Positions 1-58,171 of a DNA stretch of 58,171 nucleotides are shown here, one piece after another. Every line of letters begins with the position of its first letter. Position 1 is the stretch's first letter. The DNA comes from Oceanibaculum nanhaiense (GTDB taxonomy: Bacteria > Pseudomonadota > Alphaproteobacteria > Oceanibaculales > Oceanibaculaceae): positions 1-58,171 of the forward strand of contig NZ_MPOB01000015.1 in NCBI RefSeq assembly GCF_002148795.1, read 5' to 3'. A model generated the notes under the pieces. That model made no database searches, was not told the DNA's origin, and saw nothing but the letters and a program-made list of their open reading frames with translations. The position numbers and the translations under genes were made by a program.

Positions 1-585
1 TATTTTGCCGATACAATGGGCCTTGTGCATAATTTTACAGCTGTTCTAGATTGGCGGCGGCGTGGGGAAATAATAAAAATTGTCCAAGATTCTTATTTTA
101 CGGGTGGCATAGGAAAGGTTCCCGACGAGGTTGGAAATTTCGTAAGAAAAAGATTTTTAAACTCTCTTCAGTATACTCAAATTATGCGGAGGTTGGACAG
201 TCGGCGTACTGAGGGTGTGGGCAGACTTGTCAAAGAAGATGCTACACAGGACCAGATATTTGGTCAATTTCAATATTTGTATAGAGATGTATTATTTAGG
301 GACTTAAGACATAAAATTTGGAATGGCACTCAGGTGAAGACGATATCAGCCATGACAACGCGCGCGGGGTTTTCTTTGGATAATGGCGTTCCTTATCCTA
401 CTTTTCAGGAAGACTATGGCCTTGTGCTTGTTGATAATTTTAAGGACCATCGCGGTGATCCTGAGAAGCTGTTGAGAGCCGCCGCATTTGCCGGTTGGGG
501 GGTTGTTCCTGAAAGCCAAAAACATCGGATTCGGGAAGTTGCTCAACATATAGAAGAGCGTAGGTCCAAGAGGTATCAAGCGTGA
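1..585 (+). CDS. Hypothetical protein, possibly 5'-partial, AT-rich module
   Basis: I do not recognise a family. The first in-frame ATG is at 16, but the frame is open to base 1 and no ribosome binding site precedes that ATG, so the gene may begin outside the window; from the ATG it would be 189 residues. The product looks soluble, rich in charged residues, with no signal peptide or membrane segment. The C-terminal 30 residues are strongly basic and probably helical. It overlaps the next gene by 4 bases (GTGA), so the two are probably translationally coupled. Base composition is visibly AT-richer than everything after about 1100, with AT-ending codons common, which suggests horizontal acquisition. 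Its role may be tied to the HEPN-like partner, but that rests on position only. Confidence 0.55.
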   Translation, partial: YFADTMGLVHNFTAVLDWRRRGEIIKIVQDSYFTGGIGKVPDEVGNFVRKRFLNSLQYTQIMRRLDSRRTEGVGRLVKEDATQDQIFGQFQYLYRDVLFRDLRHKIWNGTQVKTISAMTTRAGFSLDNGVPYPTFQEDYGLVLVDNFKDHRGDPEKLLRAAAFAGWGVVPESQKHRIREVAQHIEERRSKRYQA

Positions 586-1025
586 GTTCAAATTCTCGGA
601 GATTGCAAACTTTGAGAGCATTGACCGCAGCAGCAAAATCTCGCTCGGGATTGGCGGCGTTTAACCATGTAGATCATGAACTTCAAGAGATCGGTACCGC
701 CACACGAGTTTCCCCGCAAAGGCGTAGCCATTTGCTACAAGTTTTCCATGGTATGCGAGCGCTTGAAAGCGCGCTTAAAGAGGTGGCTAGAAGCCATGGT
801 CTTCCAACAAGAAATACTCTTGGAGGCGTTTTTTATGAGCTGAGCAATGTTCCGGCAAACCATCCGGCCCATTTAAGCGCACGAGATCGAAGTCGATTTC
901 TGAGAAATGTTGCGTCCACACGTAATTCAATTATGCATCAGGCGAATAAATTTCCAAGGAGTGAAAGAGAGGTTAGTGTCACTATGGGTGAAATCGCCGC
1001 ATGCTTTTCCTTATTAGTGAGATAA
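582..1025 (+). CDS. Putative HEPN-domain protein (RNxxxH motif)
   Basis: A 147-residue, probably all-helical protein. The GTG start overlaps the upstream stop and is preceded by an AAGAGG-type binding site about 8 bases upstream. Near the C-terminus it has R114-N115-x3-H119 (RNSIMH) within a predicted helix. This is the R-x4-6-H signature, with polar residue after Arg, that marks HEPN ribonuclease domains in toxin-antitoxin, abortive-infection and CRISPR-associated proteins. The rest of the sequence gives no further match, and a short motif like this can arise by chance. The AT-rich composition matches the upstream partner and differs from the chromosome to the right. If the call is right, a function in RNA cleavage during defence or stress is plausible, but this is inference. 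No nucleotidyltransferase (MNT) antitoxin is visible in the window. Confidence 0.5.
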   Translation: MSSNSRRLQTLRALTAAAKSRSGLAAFNHVDHELQEIGTATRVSPQRRSHLLQVFHGMRALESALKEVARSHGLPTRNTLGGVFYELSNVPANHPAHLSARDRSRFLRNVASTRNSIMHQANKFPRSEREVSVTMGEIAACFSLLVR

Positions 1026-1304: not shown

Positions 1305-2714
1305 ATGACCCAGACCCGCATCGCCGTCTCGCACATCACCAAGCGGTATTTCCTGTACCGCACGGCGCTGGAGCGTCTGCTGCATGCCGGTTTCGGCGTG
1401 AAGGCCAAGCCGGTGCGTGCCTTCGAGGCGCTGAACGATGTCTCCTTCTCGGTCAAGGCCGGGGAATGCGTCGGGCTGGTCGGGCGCAACGGCTCGGGCA
1501 AATCGACGCTGCTCTACATCATCGCCAACACGCTGGCGCCGACTTTCGGCAGCGTCGCGGTGACCGGCCGGCTGGCGGCGCTGCTGGAGCTGGGATCGGG
1601 CTTCAACCCGGAATTCACCGGCCGCGAAAACATCTTCTTTTATGCCGCCATGCTGGGGCTGAAGCGCGAGGAGATCGCCGCCCGCTTCGAGGAGATCGTA
1701 GAGTTCGCCGGCATCCGCGATTTCATCGACCAGCCGGTGAAGACCTATTCCTCGGGCATGACTGTGCGGCTGGCCTTCTCCGTCACCACCTGCATCGAGC
1801 CGGAAATCCTGATCGTGGACGAGGCGCTGGCGGTCGGCGACGAGGCGTTCCAGCGCAAATGCATCGCCCGCATGGCCGATCTCCGGTCGCGCGGCACCAC
1901 CATCCTGTTCGTCAGCCACAATGCGCGCAGCGTCATCGAACTGTGCGACCGCGCCATCCTGCTCGACCGCGGCGAGATGCTGGTGGATGGCAAGCCGGAC
2001 GAGGTGATCGTCGCCTATCGCCGCATGCTCTACATGGAAGGCGAGCGCTACGAGGCCTACCGGCAGGAGCTGAAGGCGCATAATGGCGACCCGAAGCCGC
2101 TGCTGCTGGCGCGCGAGACCGAGAACGGTTCAAACGGCAATGGTGCGGCTGAACCGCAGATAGAGTCGGAGCCCGGCGCCGCCTATTACGACGAGTCCCT
2201 GAAGCCGGAAAGCATGCTGATGCATGAACCGGCCGGCGCGGTGATCTCGGAGCCGGCAGTGTGCCTGGTTGGGGCCGATGGCGCGCCCGCCGCGCGGGTG
2301 AACATGCTGAAGCGCGGCGAGGAATATGTGATCCGCTACCGCGTGCGCTTCGAGGAGGATGCCCGCGATGTCGGCTTCTCCACCAGCGTGCAGTCGATGA
2401 ACGGCGTCATGCTGGGCGGCGGCTCGCTGGTGCTGGCCGACGAGACCATCCCCCTCGTGCCGGCCGGCAGCGTGATCGAGGCGCGGCACGTGTTTTCCTG
2501 CCGGCTGCTGGCCGGCACCTATTTCGCCAGCCTCGGCTGTTCCGCCGTGAAGGATGGCGCGCGCCAGCCGCTGCACCGCATCGCCGATGCGCTGATGTTC
2601 TCGGTGCTGCCGGAGAAATCCTACAATGGGCGCGGCATGGTGGATTTCGCCTTCCGCAGCGGCCATGCCGTGATCGCGGGTGGCGCGGAACAGGACCGAA
2701 AAGCTGGAGAATAG
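1305..2714 (+). CDS. Wzt-like polysaccharide ABC exporter ATPase with C-terminal carbohydrate-binding-type domain
   Basis: Start chosen at ATG 1305, which has GGAG 4 bases upstream and begins right at the ATPase domain; an in-frame ATG at 1242 would add 21 residues unlike the family. In 469 residues the N-terminal ~245 form an ABC ATPase: Walker A GRNGSGKST (60-68), signature SSGMTVR, Walker B ILIVDEAL, switch His in FVSHNAR. It is the family that powers O-antigen and teichoic-acid exporters (Wzt, TagH, KpsT-like). After a linker of ~60 residues comes a ~170-residue beta-rich domain in the position of the Wzt C-terminal domain that recognises the modified glycan end. No Wzm-type permease gene or glycosyltransferase is adjacent; upstream lies the AT-rich module, so this ATPase is an orphan here. 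Substrate unknown. Confidence 0.85.
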   Translation: MTQTRIAVSHITKRYFLYRTALERLLHAGFGVKAKPVRAFEALNDVSFSVKAGECVGLVGRNGSGKSTLLYIIANTLAPTFGSVAVTGRLAALLELGSGFNPEFTGRENIFFYAAMLGLKREEIAARFEEIVEFAGIRDFIDQPVKTYSSGMTVRLAFSVTTCIEPEILIVDEALAVGDEAFQRKCIARMADLRSRGTTILFVSHNARSVIELCDRAILLDRGEMLVDGKPDEVIVAYRRMLYMEGERYEAYRQELKAHNGDPKPLLLARETENGSNGNGAAEPQIESEPGAAYYDESLKPESMLMHEPAGAVISEPAVCLVGADGAPAARVNMLKRGEEYVIRYRVRFEEDARDVGFSTSVQSMNGVMLGGGSLVLADETIPLVPAGSVIEARHVFSCRLLAGTYFASLGCSAVKDGARQPLHRIADALMFSVLPEKSYNGRGMVDFAFRSGHAVIAGGAEQDRKAGE

Positions 2715-2719
2715 AATGA

Positions 2720-2804
2720 TGGTGCGGGCGGTCGGACTCGAACCGACACTCCTCTCGGAACCGGATTTTGAGTCCGGCGCGTCTACCAATTCCACCACGC
2801 CCGC
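2720..2804 (-). tRNA. tRNA-Leu (anticodon CAA)
   Basis: The reverse complement folds as a class II tRNA with a long variable arm. The 7-bp acceptor stem is GCGGGCG (2804-2798) paired with CGCCCGC (2730-2724), followed by discriminator A and an encoded CCA ending at 2720. The anticodon stem CCGGA/TCCGG encloses loop CTCAAAA, giving anticodon CAA (reads UUG, Leu). The T-arm contains GGTTCGAGTCC. The gene is convergent with the Wzt-like gene, whose stop lies only 5 bases from the CCA end. Confidence 0.95.
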
Positions 2805-5249: not shown

Positions 5250-6173
5250 TCAGAGGCGAACCCAGCCGGTGCCTTCATGGGTGAAGGCGAAGCGACCGGG
5301 GTGCAGGATTTCCGCCAGGATTTCCAGCGTCTCCAGAATACGCGGTCCGGGCCGGTTGAAAAAGTGATGACCGTCGGCAACATAGACACGGCCGTCCCGC
5401 GCCGCGCGCATGTCGGCCCAGCCGGGCTGGCCGGTCAGGGCCGATATCTCCGACAGGGTGCGTGGTATCTCGAAGCCGCAGGGGGCGATCACCACCACAT
5501 CCGGATCGATGCGCAGCAAGGCCTCCAGCTCCAGCCAGGGCGAATGCTTCCCGGCCTCGCCGAACAGGCTGACGCCGCCGGCCCGCGCGATCAGTTCCGG
5601 CACCCAGTTGCCCGCCGCCATCGGCGGGTCCAGCCATTCGATGCAGGCGACGGTCGGCTTCGGCTCGATCAGACGTGTCTGCGATTCGATGCCCTCGATG
5701 GCGAGCGTCAGCCGGTCGATCAGCGCCTTGCCCTGGCGCACCGCACCCAGCGCGCGGGCGACGCGGCGGATGTCGGTCCAGATGCCGGCAAGGCTGGCCG
5801 GGCTGCAGGAGACGAGACGTACCGGGCGGCCGGTCAGCTCGCAGGCCGCCTGCTCCACCTCGCCCAGGCTGACGGCGCAGACCCGGCACAGATCCTGGGT
5901 GACGATGATGTCCGGCTGCAATTCGGCCAGCATCGCCTCATCCACCTCGAAGACCGACAATGCGTTGCGTGCCGCCTGCTTCACCTGGCGGTCGATCTCT
6001 GCCGAGGGGACGGTGATATCGATGCGCGGGCGGCTGACGATGGGCAGGTCGCCGATGGCGGCGGGGAAGTCGCATTCGTGGCTGCGCCCGACCAGATTGC
6101 CGGCATGGCCCAGCTCGGCCACGATCTCGGTGGCGCTGGGCAGCAGGCTGACGATGCGGGGCGGGCGGGTCAT
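5250..6173 (-). CDS. BtuF-like cobalamin-binding protein
   Basis: A 307-residue class III periplasmic-binding-protein fold, opening with PRIVSLLPSATEIVAELG and ending with FFNRPGPRILETLEILAEILHP, both typical of the BtuF/cobalamin-binding family. The CRVCAVSL motif (~residues 95-102) and SHECDFP are common in the long alphaproteobacterial cobalamin-binding subfamily. There is no signal peptide, so unlike BtuF it is probably cytoplasmic, and no BtuCD genes are near. Its task (corrinoid sequestration or sensing) is uncertain; siderophore or haem binding is possible in this superfamily. It is followed closely by paiB. Confidence 0.78.
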   Translation of the reverse strand: MTRPPRIVSLLPSATEIVAELGHAGNLVGRSHECDFPAAIGDLPIVSRPRIDITVPSAEIDRQVKQAARNALSVFEVDEAMLAELQPDIIVTQDLCRVCAVSLGEVEQAACELTGRPVRLVSCSPASLAGIWTDIRRVARALGAVRQGKALIDRLTLAIEGIESQTRLIEPKPTVACIEWLDPPMAAGNWVPELIARAGGVSLFGEAGKHSPWLELEALLRIDPDVVVIAPCGFEIPRTLSEISALTGQPGWADMRAARDGRVYVADGHHFFNRPGPRILETLEILAEILHPGRFAFTHEGTGWVRL

Positions 6174-10260: not shown

Positions 10261-11208
10261 GTGACCGAGATGATCAAAGTCAGTGGATTGGCGAAGCATT
10301 TCGGGCCGATCCGCGCCGTTGACGGGATTTCCTTCGCGGTCGCCAGGGGCGAGGTGCTGGGGTTCCTCGGGCCCAATGGCGCCGGCAAATCCACCACCAT
10401 GAAGATGATCACCGGCTTCCTGGAGCCGACGGCGGGCAGCGCCGAGGTGTGTGGCTTCGATGTCAGCCGCCACCCGATCCAGGTGAAGCGGCGCATCGGC
10501 TATCTGCCGGAAGGCGCGCCAGCCTATGGCGATATGACGCCGCTGGGCTTCCTCGGATTCTGCGCCGATGTGCGCGGGCTGAAGGGGGCGGACCGCAAGG
10601 CGAAGATCGAGGCCGCCATCGCCCGCACCACGCTGGGCGGCGTGCTGTACCAGCCGATCGACACGCTGTCCAAGGGCTTCAAGCGCCGCGTCGGGCTGGC
10701 GCAGGCGCTGCTGCACGATCCCGAGGTGCTGGTGCTGGACGAGCCGACCGATGGTCTCGACCCGAACCAGAAGCATGAGGTGCGCACGCTGATCGAGAGC
10801 ATGGCGAAGGACAAGGCCATCATCATCTCGACCCACATCCTGGAAGAGGTGGACGCGCTGTGCAGCCGTGCCATCGTGATCGCTGGTGGCCAGATCGTCG
10901 CCGACGGCACCCCGGCGGAGCTGGAGGCGCGCTCCCGCCTGCATAATGCTGTGACGGTGCGGCTGAAGAAGAGCGCCGTGCCCGCCGCCCGCAAGGCGCT
11001 GGCGGATATTCCCGGTGCTGCCGGCATCGAGGAGGCTGACGGCACGCTGACCGTGCTGGCGCAGCGCCGCAAGGCGATCCTGCCGGCGGTCAGCCAGGCA
11101 CTGCGCGACGCCAATATCGCGGCGGACGAAATCAGGCTGGAACGCGGCCGCCTCGACGAGGTGTTCCGCGACGTCACCGATCCGAAAAAGACTGGAAAAC
11201 AGGGCTAG
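10261..11208 (+). CDS. ABC transporter ATPase, GldA-like
   Basis: A 315-residue ABC-2-type ATPase. Walker A GPNGAGKST (~residues 39-47), a divergent signature LSKGFKRRVG, Walker B VLVLDEPTDGLD and the switch His STHILEEV are all present. A ~90-residue C-terminal extension follows, as in GldA/CcmA-like exporters. GTG start at 10261 with GGGGAG about 8 bases upstream; ATG 10270 is an alternative. It heads a five-gene run with a GldF-like permease, a GldG-like auxiliary protein, a DUF4340 protein and a GST. In Bacteroidetes GldAFG serves gliding, but the same cassette is widespread in non-gliding Proteobacteria, where its substrate is unknown. Confidence 0.88.
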   Translation: MTEMIKVSGLAKHFGPIRAVDGISFAVARGEVLGFLGPNGAGKSTTMKMITGFLEPTAGSAEVCGFDVSRHPIQVKRRIGYLPEGAPAYGDMTPLGFLGFCADVRGLKGADRKAKIEAAIARTTLGGVLYQPIDTLSKGFKRRVGLAQALLHDPEVLVLDEPTDGLDPNQKHEVRTLIESMAKDKAIIISTHILEEVDALCSRAIVIAGGQIVADGTPAELEARSRLHNAVTVRLKKSAVPAARKALADIPGAAGIEEADGTLTVLAQRRKAILPAVSQALRDANIAADEIRLERGRLDEVFRDVTDPKKTGKQG

Positions 11209-57282: not shown

Positions 57283-57505
57283 AGCCGGCCTGAAGCAATG
57301 AGAATATCCCGCCTGTCCTGGACAGGTTATCGCTGGGAAATTCCGTGGTCGCCGTTTCAAACGCGAAATGGTGCGCTGGTCAGGGTGTAGATGCGAACCA
57401 TTATATTATTGAAATAAATAGATAATTTGATTCTCCTAAGTCTTGATGCCTCAAGGCCCTGGTGGGGGCATCAAGACGAAGGAGAAGGGCGTTCATGGCA
57501 ACAGA
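57283..57505. other. Intergenic region between convergent livF and RTX gene, with hairpin
   Basis: No gene is seen. An AT-rich patch (57400-57440) precedes a perfect 11-bp hairpin, GTCTTGATGCC (57440-57450) with GGCATCAAGAC (57467-57477). It lies 29 bases beyond the stop of the minus-strand RTX gene and could terminate it, although the T-run is weak. A shorter palindrome (CCTGTCCTGGACAGG) follows livF at about 57312-57326. Confidence 0.55.
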
Positions 57506-58171
57506 TCAGCCGTAGAAGGCGGTGTCGATATCGGCAGCGGTGAGCTGGCTGATGCCGAGGAAGGTGAGGGTCGCCCCCGCCACCTCGATGACCACGCCGG
57601 TGTCGGTCACGGTCTGGCTGGCAATCGCCGCCTGCAGTTCCGCCAGCGTCGCATTTTCTACCGCGAGATGGTCCGTGCCCTGCTGGAAGTCGGTCACCGT
57701 AGCGGTGAGGATCGCATCGGCAAAGGCCGCATCATAGGCCCGCAGGATGAAGACATCCGCGCCGTCACCGCCGGTCAGCGTGTCGTTGCCGAAGCCGGAA
57801 TAGAGCACGTCGTTGCCGGCACCGCCGGTGATGGAATCATGGCCCTTGCCGCCGCGCAGCTCGTCATTGCCGGCACCGCCCATGACCGTGTCGGCATTCA
57901 TGCCACCCTGCGCGACATTGGACCCGCCGCCGGTCAGGTCCAGCGTATCGAAGCCGGTGCCGCCGTCGAGGCTGTCATTACCCTCGCCGCCAAACACGGA
58001 GTCGTTACCGTCGCCGCCCAGCAGCGTGTCATTGCCATCGGCAGAGCCAACCGTATCGTTGCCGGCACCGCCATCGATATAATCGTCATCCGCACCCAGC
58101 ACGATGTACTGGCTGGCATCGTCGGCCACCACATAGTTCTGGCCGGCGCCGCCGGTGATGGTGGTCGAGCC
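57506..58171 (-). CDS. RTX-type calcium-binding protein, C-terminal part (5' end outside window)
   Basis: The reading frame is open to the right edge, so only the last ~221 residues are present. They contain about eight GGxGxDxx(L/V) nonapeptides (for example GGAGNDTVGSADGNDTLLG, GGDGNDSVFG, GGEGNDSLDG, GGAGNDVLYS), which fold as a calcium-bound beta-roll. A ~65-residue C-terminal domain follows, of the kind that carries the type I secretion signal (VFILRAYDAAFADAILTATVTDFQQGTDHLAV, ending ADIDTAFYG). The protein is probably exported by a type I system; function and N-terminal domain cannot be seen. Inside the window it is followed by the hairpin at 57440. Confidence 0.88.
   Translation of the reverse strand, partial: GSTTITGGAGQNYVVADDASQYIVLGADDDYIDGGAGNDTVGSADGNDTLLGGDGNDSVFGGEGNDSLDGGTGFDTLDLTGGGSNVAQGGMNADTVMGGAGNDELRGGKGHDSITGGAGNDVLYSGFGNDTLTGGDGADVFILRAYDAAFADAILTATVTDFQQGTDHLAVENATLAELQAAIASQTVTDTGVVIEVAGATLTFLGISQLTAADIDTAFYG

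Follow-up and report, generated by a model that had tools for sequence, protein, structure and literature searches.

A two-gene module with a HEPN-like putative ribonuclease between dusA and wzt in Oceanibaculum nanhaiense

At one end of a contig of Oceanibaculum nanhaiense, two genes of low GC content adjoin chromosomal DNA of quite different composition, and the second encodes a motif of the kind that marks HEPN ribonucleases. A first-pass annotation, made from the DNA alone, had read them as a foreign pair of unrecognised families with the usual look of a toxin-antitoxin or anti-phage system. We therefore asked whether the pair is indeed foreign and complete, whether its second product is a HEPN protein, and what the two might do together. 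The stretch under study, here called the window, is the whole of contig C15 (C15:1-58171; 58,171 bases) of a genome of 3.84 Mb in 40 contigs, here G000. The features discussed below are collected in Table 1.

Table 1. Features of the module and its right-hand neighbour. Positions are those of the window unless another sequence is named; L051 is the relative described in the text.
Feature	Position	Strand	Remarks
Gene A, C-terminal 194 codons	1..585	+	Frame open at contig end
Gene A, first 88 codons	L029:2302-2565, on contig C7		Basis: match to residues 1-84 of L051 A
Gene B, 147 aa, HEPN-like putative ribonuclease	582..1025	+	Complete frame, GTG start; relative at L051:8001-8444
Ex3K of gene B, E62-K66	765..779	+	Both residues the same in L051
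R114-N-x3-H119 of gene B	921..938	+	R114, N115, I117, M118 and H119 the same in L051
Tail of inserted segment	1026..1165		GC 0.49; ends where sister-genome identity begins
Wzt-like ABC transporter ATPase, right neighbour	1305..2714	+	ABC_tran E 3.1e-22; Wzt_C E 6.4e-19

The module and its site

The two genes, A and B, overlap by four bases, and the claim that they are AT-richer than the chromosome to their right is borne out. GC content is 0.452 in the first 1,000 bases, against 0.571-0.695 in the remaining 1-kb blocks of the window; it is about 0.45 for bases 1-1,165 and averages 0.648 for 1166-58171. Neither gene has a significant family match in Pfam, NCBIfam or PADLOC, in agreement with the earlier description of both as unrecognised.

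Because A is cut off by the contig end, it had been suggested that the module might be larger. The remainder of A lies where contig C7 of the same genome ends, adjoining dusA, so the upstream flank called for by the first-pass annotation is now in hand. C7 stops 400 bases past the end of its identity with a sister genome of the same genus, G400; these last 400 bases have a GC content of 0.43, and an open frame of 88 codons within them is the start of A. The 281-residue A protein of L051 joins the two contigs: its residues 1-84 match C7:164301-164552 (54% identity, E 1.2e-25) and its residues 98-278 match C15:25-573 (43%, E 8.3e-43), without overlap, and a search with it of 388 genomes of the phylum gave these two segments as its only matches. 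Counted against the L051 residues, the gap in A between the contigs would be about one codon. Since the other end of A lies beside dusA, the module is limited to two genes: it has the form dusA-[A-B]-wzt, is about 1.57 kb long and contains no third gene. The left end was indeed cut, but the larger module did not materialise.

From base 1166 of the window onwards, the sister genome G400 matches it at 91% identity; before that point the two differ. In G400 the slot contains a 1.48-kb AT-rich insert (GC 0.51) that leads to dusA and is unlike A-B. Within it, L014:2819-4144 covers a gene for a DUF2971 protein (Pfam E 3.3e-7; PADLOC PDC-S31, E 1.5e-27) and one for a 206-aa protein with the motif RNEFVH, to which neither Pfam nor PADLOC gives a name. 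In the sister genomes G398 and G399, dusA and wzt matches fall on separate contigs; the 8-kb stretches at dusA, where frames were listed for G398 only, are of ordinary GC except for single dips to 0.55 and 0.61. The dusA-wzt order was thus seen in two of the four genomes of the genus, with different inserts in those two.

Islands at dusA sites enter that gene at its 5' end and carry an integrase with them, as described in excerpts of PMC4482086. We rejected this route for the A-B module, because dusA is whole in the sister genome, no integrase occurs among the frames and families listed for the window and the G400 slot, and the module junctions have no joining repeat of at least 9 bases. On the other side, the Wzt-like gene is also present in the sister and lies outside the module, and the right-hand neighbours are ordinary genes. 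On the earlier question whether the pair recurs together in defence islands, the pair is found again in L051, and the window module does not lie in such an island. The Wzt-like gene is separated from a gene for a VTT-domain protein by a minus-strand tRNA-Leu(CAA) at window positions 2720-2804.

Relatives of the pair and selection on its genes

Among 84,980 species genomes scanned for B, one relative emerged, L051; because the scan detects close relatives only, this rarity may be overstated. L051 has the complete pair, with the same order, the four-base overlap and the motif, in a segment of GC 0.49-0.60 adjoining chromosome that is mostly 0.64-0.76. The genome is labelled Mycobacterium sp. KBS0706, yet it is proteobacterial by content (its Coq7 is 70% identical to that of the window genome). 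It very probably belongs to the same class as the window genome, which we take to be Alphaproteobacteria. The pair has been inherited together in two distant proteobacterial genomes.

Narrower searches gave the same picture. B was present in one of 398 genomes of the phylum (its own), and searches with a two-row B profile of 336 genomes from the class to which L051 belongs and of 17 from its order each gave a single match, in both cases L051 itself. A occurred in one of 96 relatives and one of 385 genomes of the class, each time its own genome. It was found in none of the three other genomes of the genus, which for A rules out a conserved housekeeping locus of sister species, the contrary reading raised with the first-pass annotation. 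Among plasmids, phages, E. coli genomes, viral contigs and whole genomes, relatives of the pair turned up only in its own genome and L051, the remaining matches being weak (E 0.7 or worse). A Caballeronia match (E 4) was taken as chance because the matched strand has no long frame resembling B.

No known defence genes were seen beside the pair in L051, where PADLOC was applied to one neighbour only. The upstream neighbour (L051:5991-6941) is a gene of low GC for a 316-aa protein with a zinc-ribbon-like CPKC...CKAC end and no significant Pfam or PADLOC family.

The two B proteins align without gaps over all 147 residues at 69% identity. Their genes differ at 43 first, 28 second and 92 third codon positions, each of 147; silent changes affect 69 codons, and 47 residues are replaced (Nei-Gojobori dN 0.24, dS saturated). 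Because third-position differences dominate, B is a real, conserved gene, and by this codon comparison it is under purifying selection. A diverges faster than B. Its identity to the L051 protein is 54% over residues 1-84, 37% over 89-140, 24% over 141-195 and 55% over 196-281 (about 41-54% overall), and dS is again saturated for its C-terminal part (value returned, -1). On this comparative evidence both A and B are selected genes, and the faster change of A would fit a sensor or an antitoxin. The predicted structure of A (pLDDT 32) was unusable, and matches to RapA or EsxA (E 0.47 or worse) were taken as chance.

The GC step, the different insert in G400, the scattered distribution and the retention of the pair as a unit in L051 together support the view, already put forward from composition, that A-B is a horizontally acquired, foreign two-gene module.

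The HEPN reading of gene B

HEPN proteins share Rx4-6H, in which the arginine is followed by N, D or H, and often have Ex3[KR], according to excerpts of a 2013 survey (PMC3710099). Both hallmarks occur in B, the latter with its second acidic residue, and both occur in the L051 copy as well. The R-N-x3-H that had first drawn attention to the gene is present as R114-N115-S-I-M-H119 and is unchanged in L051; the second motif reads E62-S-A-L-K66. Helices are predicted at residues 45-71, 80-88, 100-122 and 128-145, so that R-N-x3-H falls near the end of the third and Ex3K in an earlier one. No family match of B exceeds any cut-off in Pfam, NCBIfam or PADLOC. Below threshold, the sole Pfam match of window B is to HEPN_Apea (PF18739; residues 93-123, E 0.18) and the sole PADLOC match of L051 B is to a Csx1/Csm6 CARF+HEPN model (residues 53-139, E 0.027); these matches are not mutual, window B having none in PADLOC and L051 B none in Pfam. 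The B profile also matched a MAT a1 homeodomain (E 0.035), but over residues 41-76 alone, and we put this down to chance.

Structural and profile comparisons were less favourable. The AlphaFold model of B is helical with a mean pLDDT of 56.6, and Foldseek returned nothing at E <= 0.001; HepT (7bxo) ranked second, at E 2.0. In a structural comparison of this low-confidence model, the HEPN chains 1wwp (HEPN according to excerpts of PMC3710099), 2hsb and HepT 7bxo scored Z 7.6, 7.2 and 7.1 and RnlA 6y2s scored 6.9 over 130 residues, but the unrelated helical bundles of TBK1 and MccA reached 8.2, and the tool's own guidance is to give little weight to Z below about 13 for bundles of this type. An hhalign profile test fails to separate HEPN references from controls: among 106 entries, RnlA came 11th and the Apea pair 13th, behind unrelated proteins, and an unrelated frame of the window (10270-11205) scored best. 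Nine sources supplied the 102 open frames that served as controls; RnlA and the L051 upstream protein are each entered twice, as reference and as control. In an ungapped overlay of the C termini, R114 and H119 of B lie no more than one residue away from R97 and H102 of HepT (as numbered from Y104 of its RX4HXY), in a register inferred from the end points of the structural comparison.

One alternative is that B is a small helical protein outside the HEPN group, with RNxxxH there by chance, and that the pair is some other sort of accessory operon. Chance is not negligible: 4.9% of 20,000 shuffles of B carry the motif, as do 6 of 267 stop-free window stretches of at least 100 codons, and a motif as short as Ex3K is frequent by chance. 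The absence of any significant family, fold or profile match points the same way. Nevertheless, we regard this alternative as rather unlikely, given that both motifs are retained at 69% identity, that the helix order fits, and that the sub-threshold matches in two separate libraries are both to HEPN models. Motif, polar asparagine after the arginine, Ex3K, helix order and these library matches lead us to favour, with some confidence, the reading of B as a HEPN protein; the earlier assignment to the HEPN type thus stays plausible on motif and helices, while model confidence, Foldseek and profile ranking do not bear it out.

Known counterparts and possible function

If B is a HEPN protein, the pair resembles HepT-MntA in being an operon of two genes, of which the HEPN gene is the second (excerpts of PMC3710099), and B resembles HepT in being small and all-helical with RX4H; HepT is also among the weak structural matches of the B model. 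However, the HepT toxin carries RX4HXY (excerpts of PMC7641770) and its partner nucleotidyltransferase GSX10DXD, whereas B lacks the tyrosine, having Q120 and A121 after H119 in both copies, and A lacks GSX10DXD, with no GS in either copy as judged by eye with about one codon unread; nor does A match any Pfam family. The HEPN domain of ApeA (PF18739) is the only Pfam model to touch B, and hhalign places motif on motif, but B scores 12.7 bits against a curated cut-off of 24.4. ApeA, moreover, joins its HEPN to an N-terminal domain of mostly beta structure (excerpts of PMC3710099), which B does not have.

RnlA-RnlB (RNase LS) offers a HEPN toxin in a two-gene toxin-antitoxin system, which itself has an anti-phage role (excerpts of PMC5308261 and PMC3710099), and RnlA chains span residues 1-147 of the B model. 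However, rnlA of E. coli K-12 encodes 357 aa and comes first in its operon, whereas B, of 147 aa, comes second, and in hhalign the sequence similarity of RnlA to B is no greater than that of controls. Pfam holds RnlA models, and none of them is among the Pfam matches of either B copy up to E 10. The weak PADLOC match of L051 B (E 0.027) recalls Csx1/Csm6, but that model has 412 positions, with CARF joined to HEPN, against the 147 aa of B. Because tested features of each fail, the pair is not filed as HepT-MntA, ApeA or RnlA. In the HEPN and RnlA literature, judged at the level of search results, no description was recognisable as the A-B pair.

The best explanation, over which we are evenly divided, is an acquired dusA-[A-B]-wzt operon in which B is a HEPN-type endoribonuclease restrained or triggered by A. 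A would be produced first and coupled to B through the four-base overlap. B would act as a dimer and cut RNA, its catalytic site being made up of R114, H119 and probably E62. Gene order, coupling and the faster divergence of A suggest that A most likely keeps B inactive in healthy cells, as antitoxin or sensor; as a sensor, it would release B upon phage or other stress. A toxin-antitoxin or defence function is what we infer for the pair.

A sharper version, compatible with this explanation, would make A-B an anti-phage sensor-effector pair and not a toxin-antitoxin system, with A sensing infection and activating a silent B. The uneven divergence of A (about 54% identity in its N-terminal part, 24% in the middle and 55% in its C-terminal part, compared with 69% for B) is consistent with such a role, as is the PDC-S31-like DUF2971 gene beside a second RNxxxH protein in the G400 slot. 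Against it, neither A nor B has a significant PADLOC model, and the single-neighbour PADLOC check in L051 gave no defence gene. We consider this version unlikely. That A is instead an enzyme with a restriction-endonuclease-like N-domain, the pair jointly cutting nucleic acid, is improbable: the order guessed by eye for its N-terminal part is helix-strand-strand-strand-helix-strand, in which PDxxVGG is conserved and one strand ends in K, but at the acidic position of the usual (D/E)xK the two copies have M or F, and A has no usable fold model and no family.

Returning to the operon in which A governs B, a bolder and doubtful form of it would be a new two-gene immune module. Here a fast-evolving A of an undescribed family, perhaps with a degenerate endonuclease-like N-domain, would check B, a HEPN RNase of an equally undescribed family, and release it on infection, and dusA-wzt would, in this genus, be a swap site for such small RNxxxH modules. 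Should B prove to be a HEPN RNase, it would add a lineage missed by current libraries, with an unnamed partner family. The different small RNxxxH-bearing inserts of two sister genomes point to dusA-wzt as a conflict-gene slot without an integrase of its own.

Beside dusA in G400 (L014, about 5306-5600) lie palindromic repeats of about 100 bases, in a stretch that folds strongly. Dozens of further copies are spread over G000, G398 and G399, several of them at G399 contig ends; none was found in the window at E 1e-3. At the far end of the window, the minus strand of 57480-58171 encodes RTX-like Gly/Asp-rich repeats (GGxGND) in a protein that the contig end truncates.
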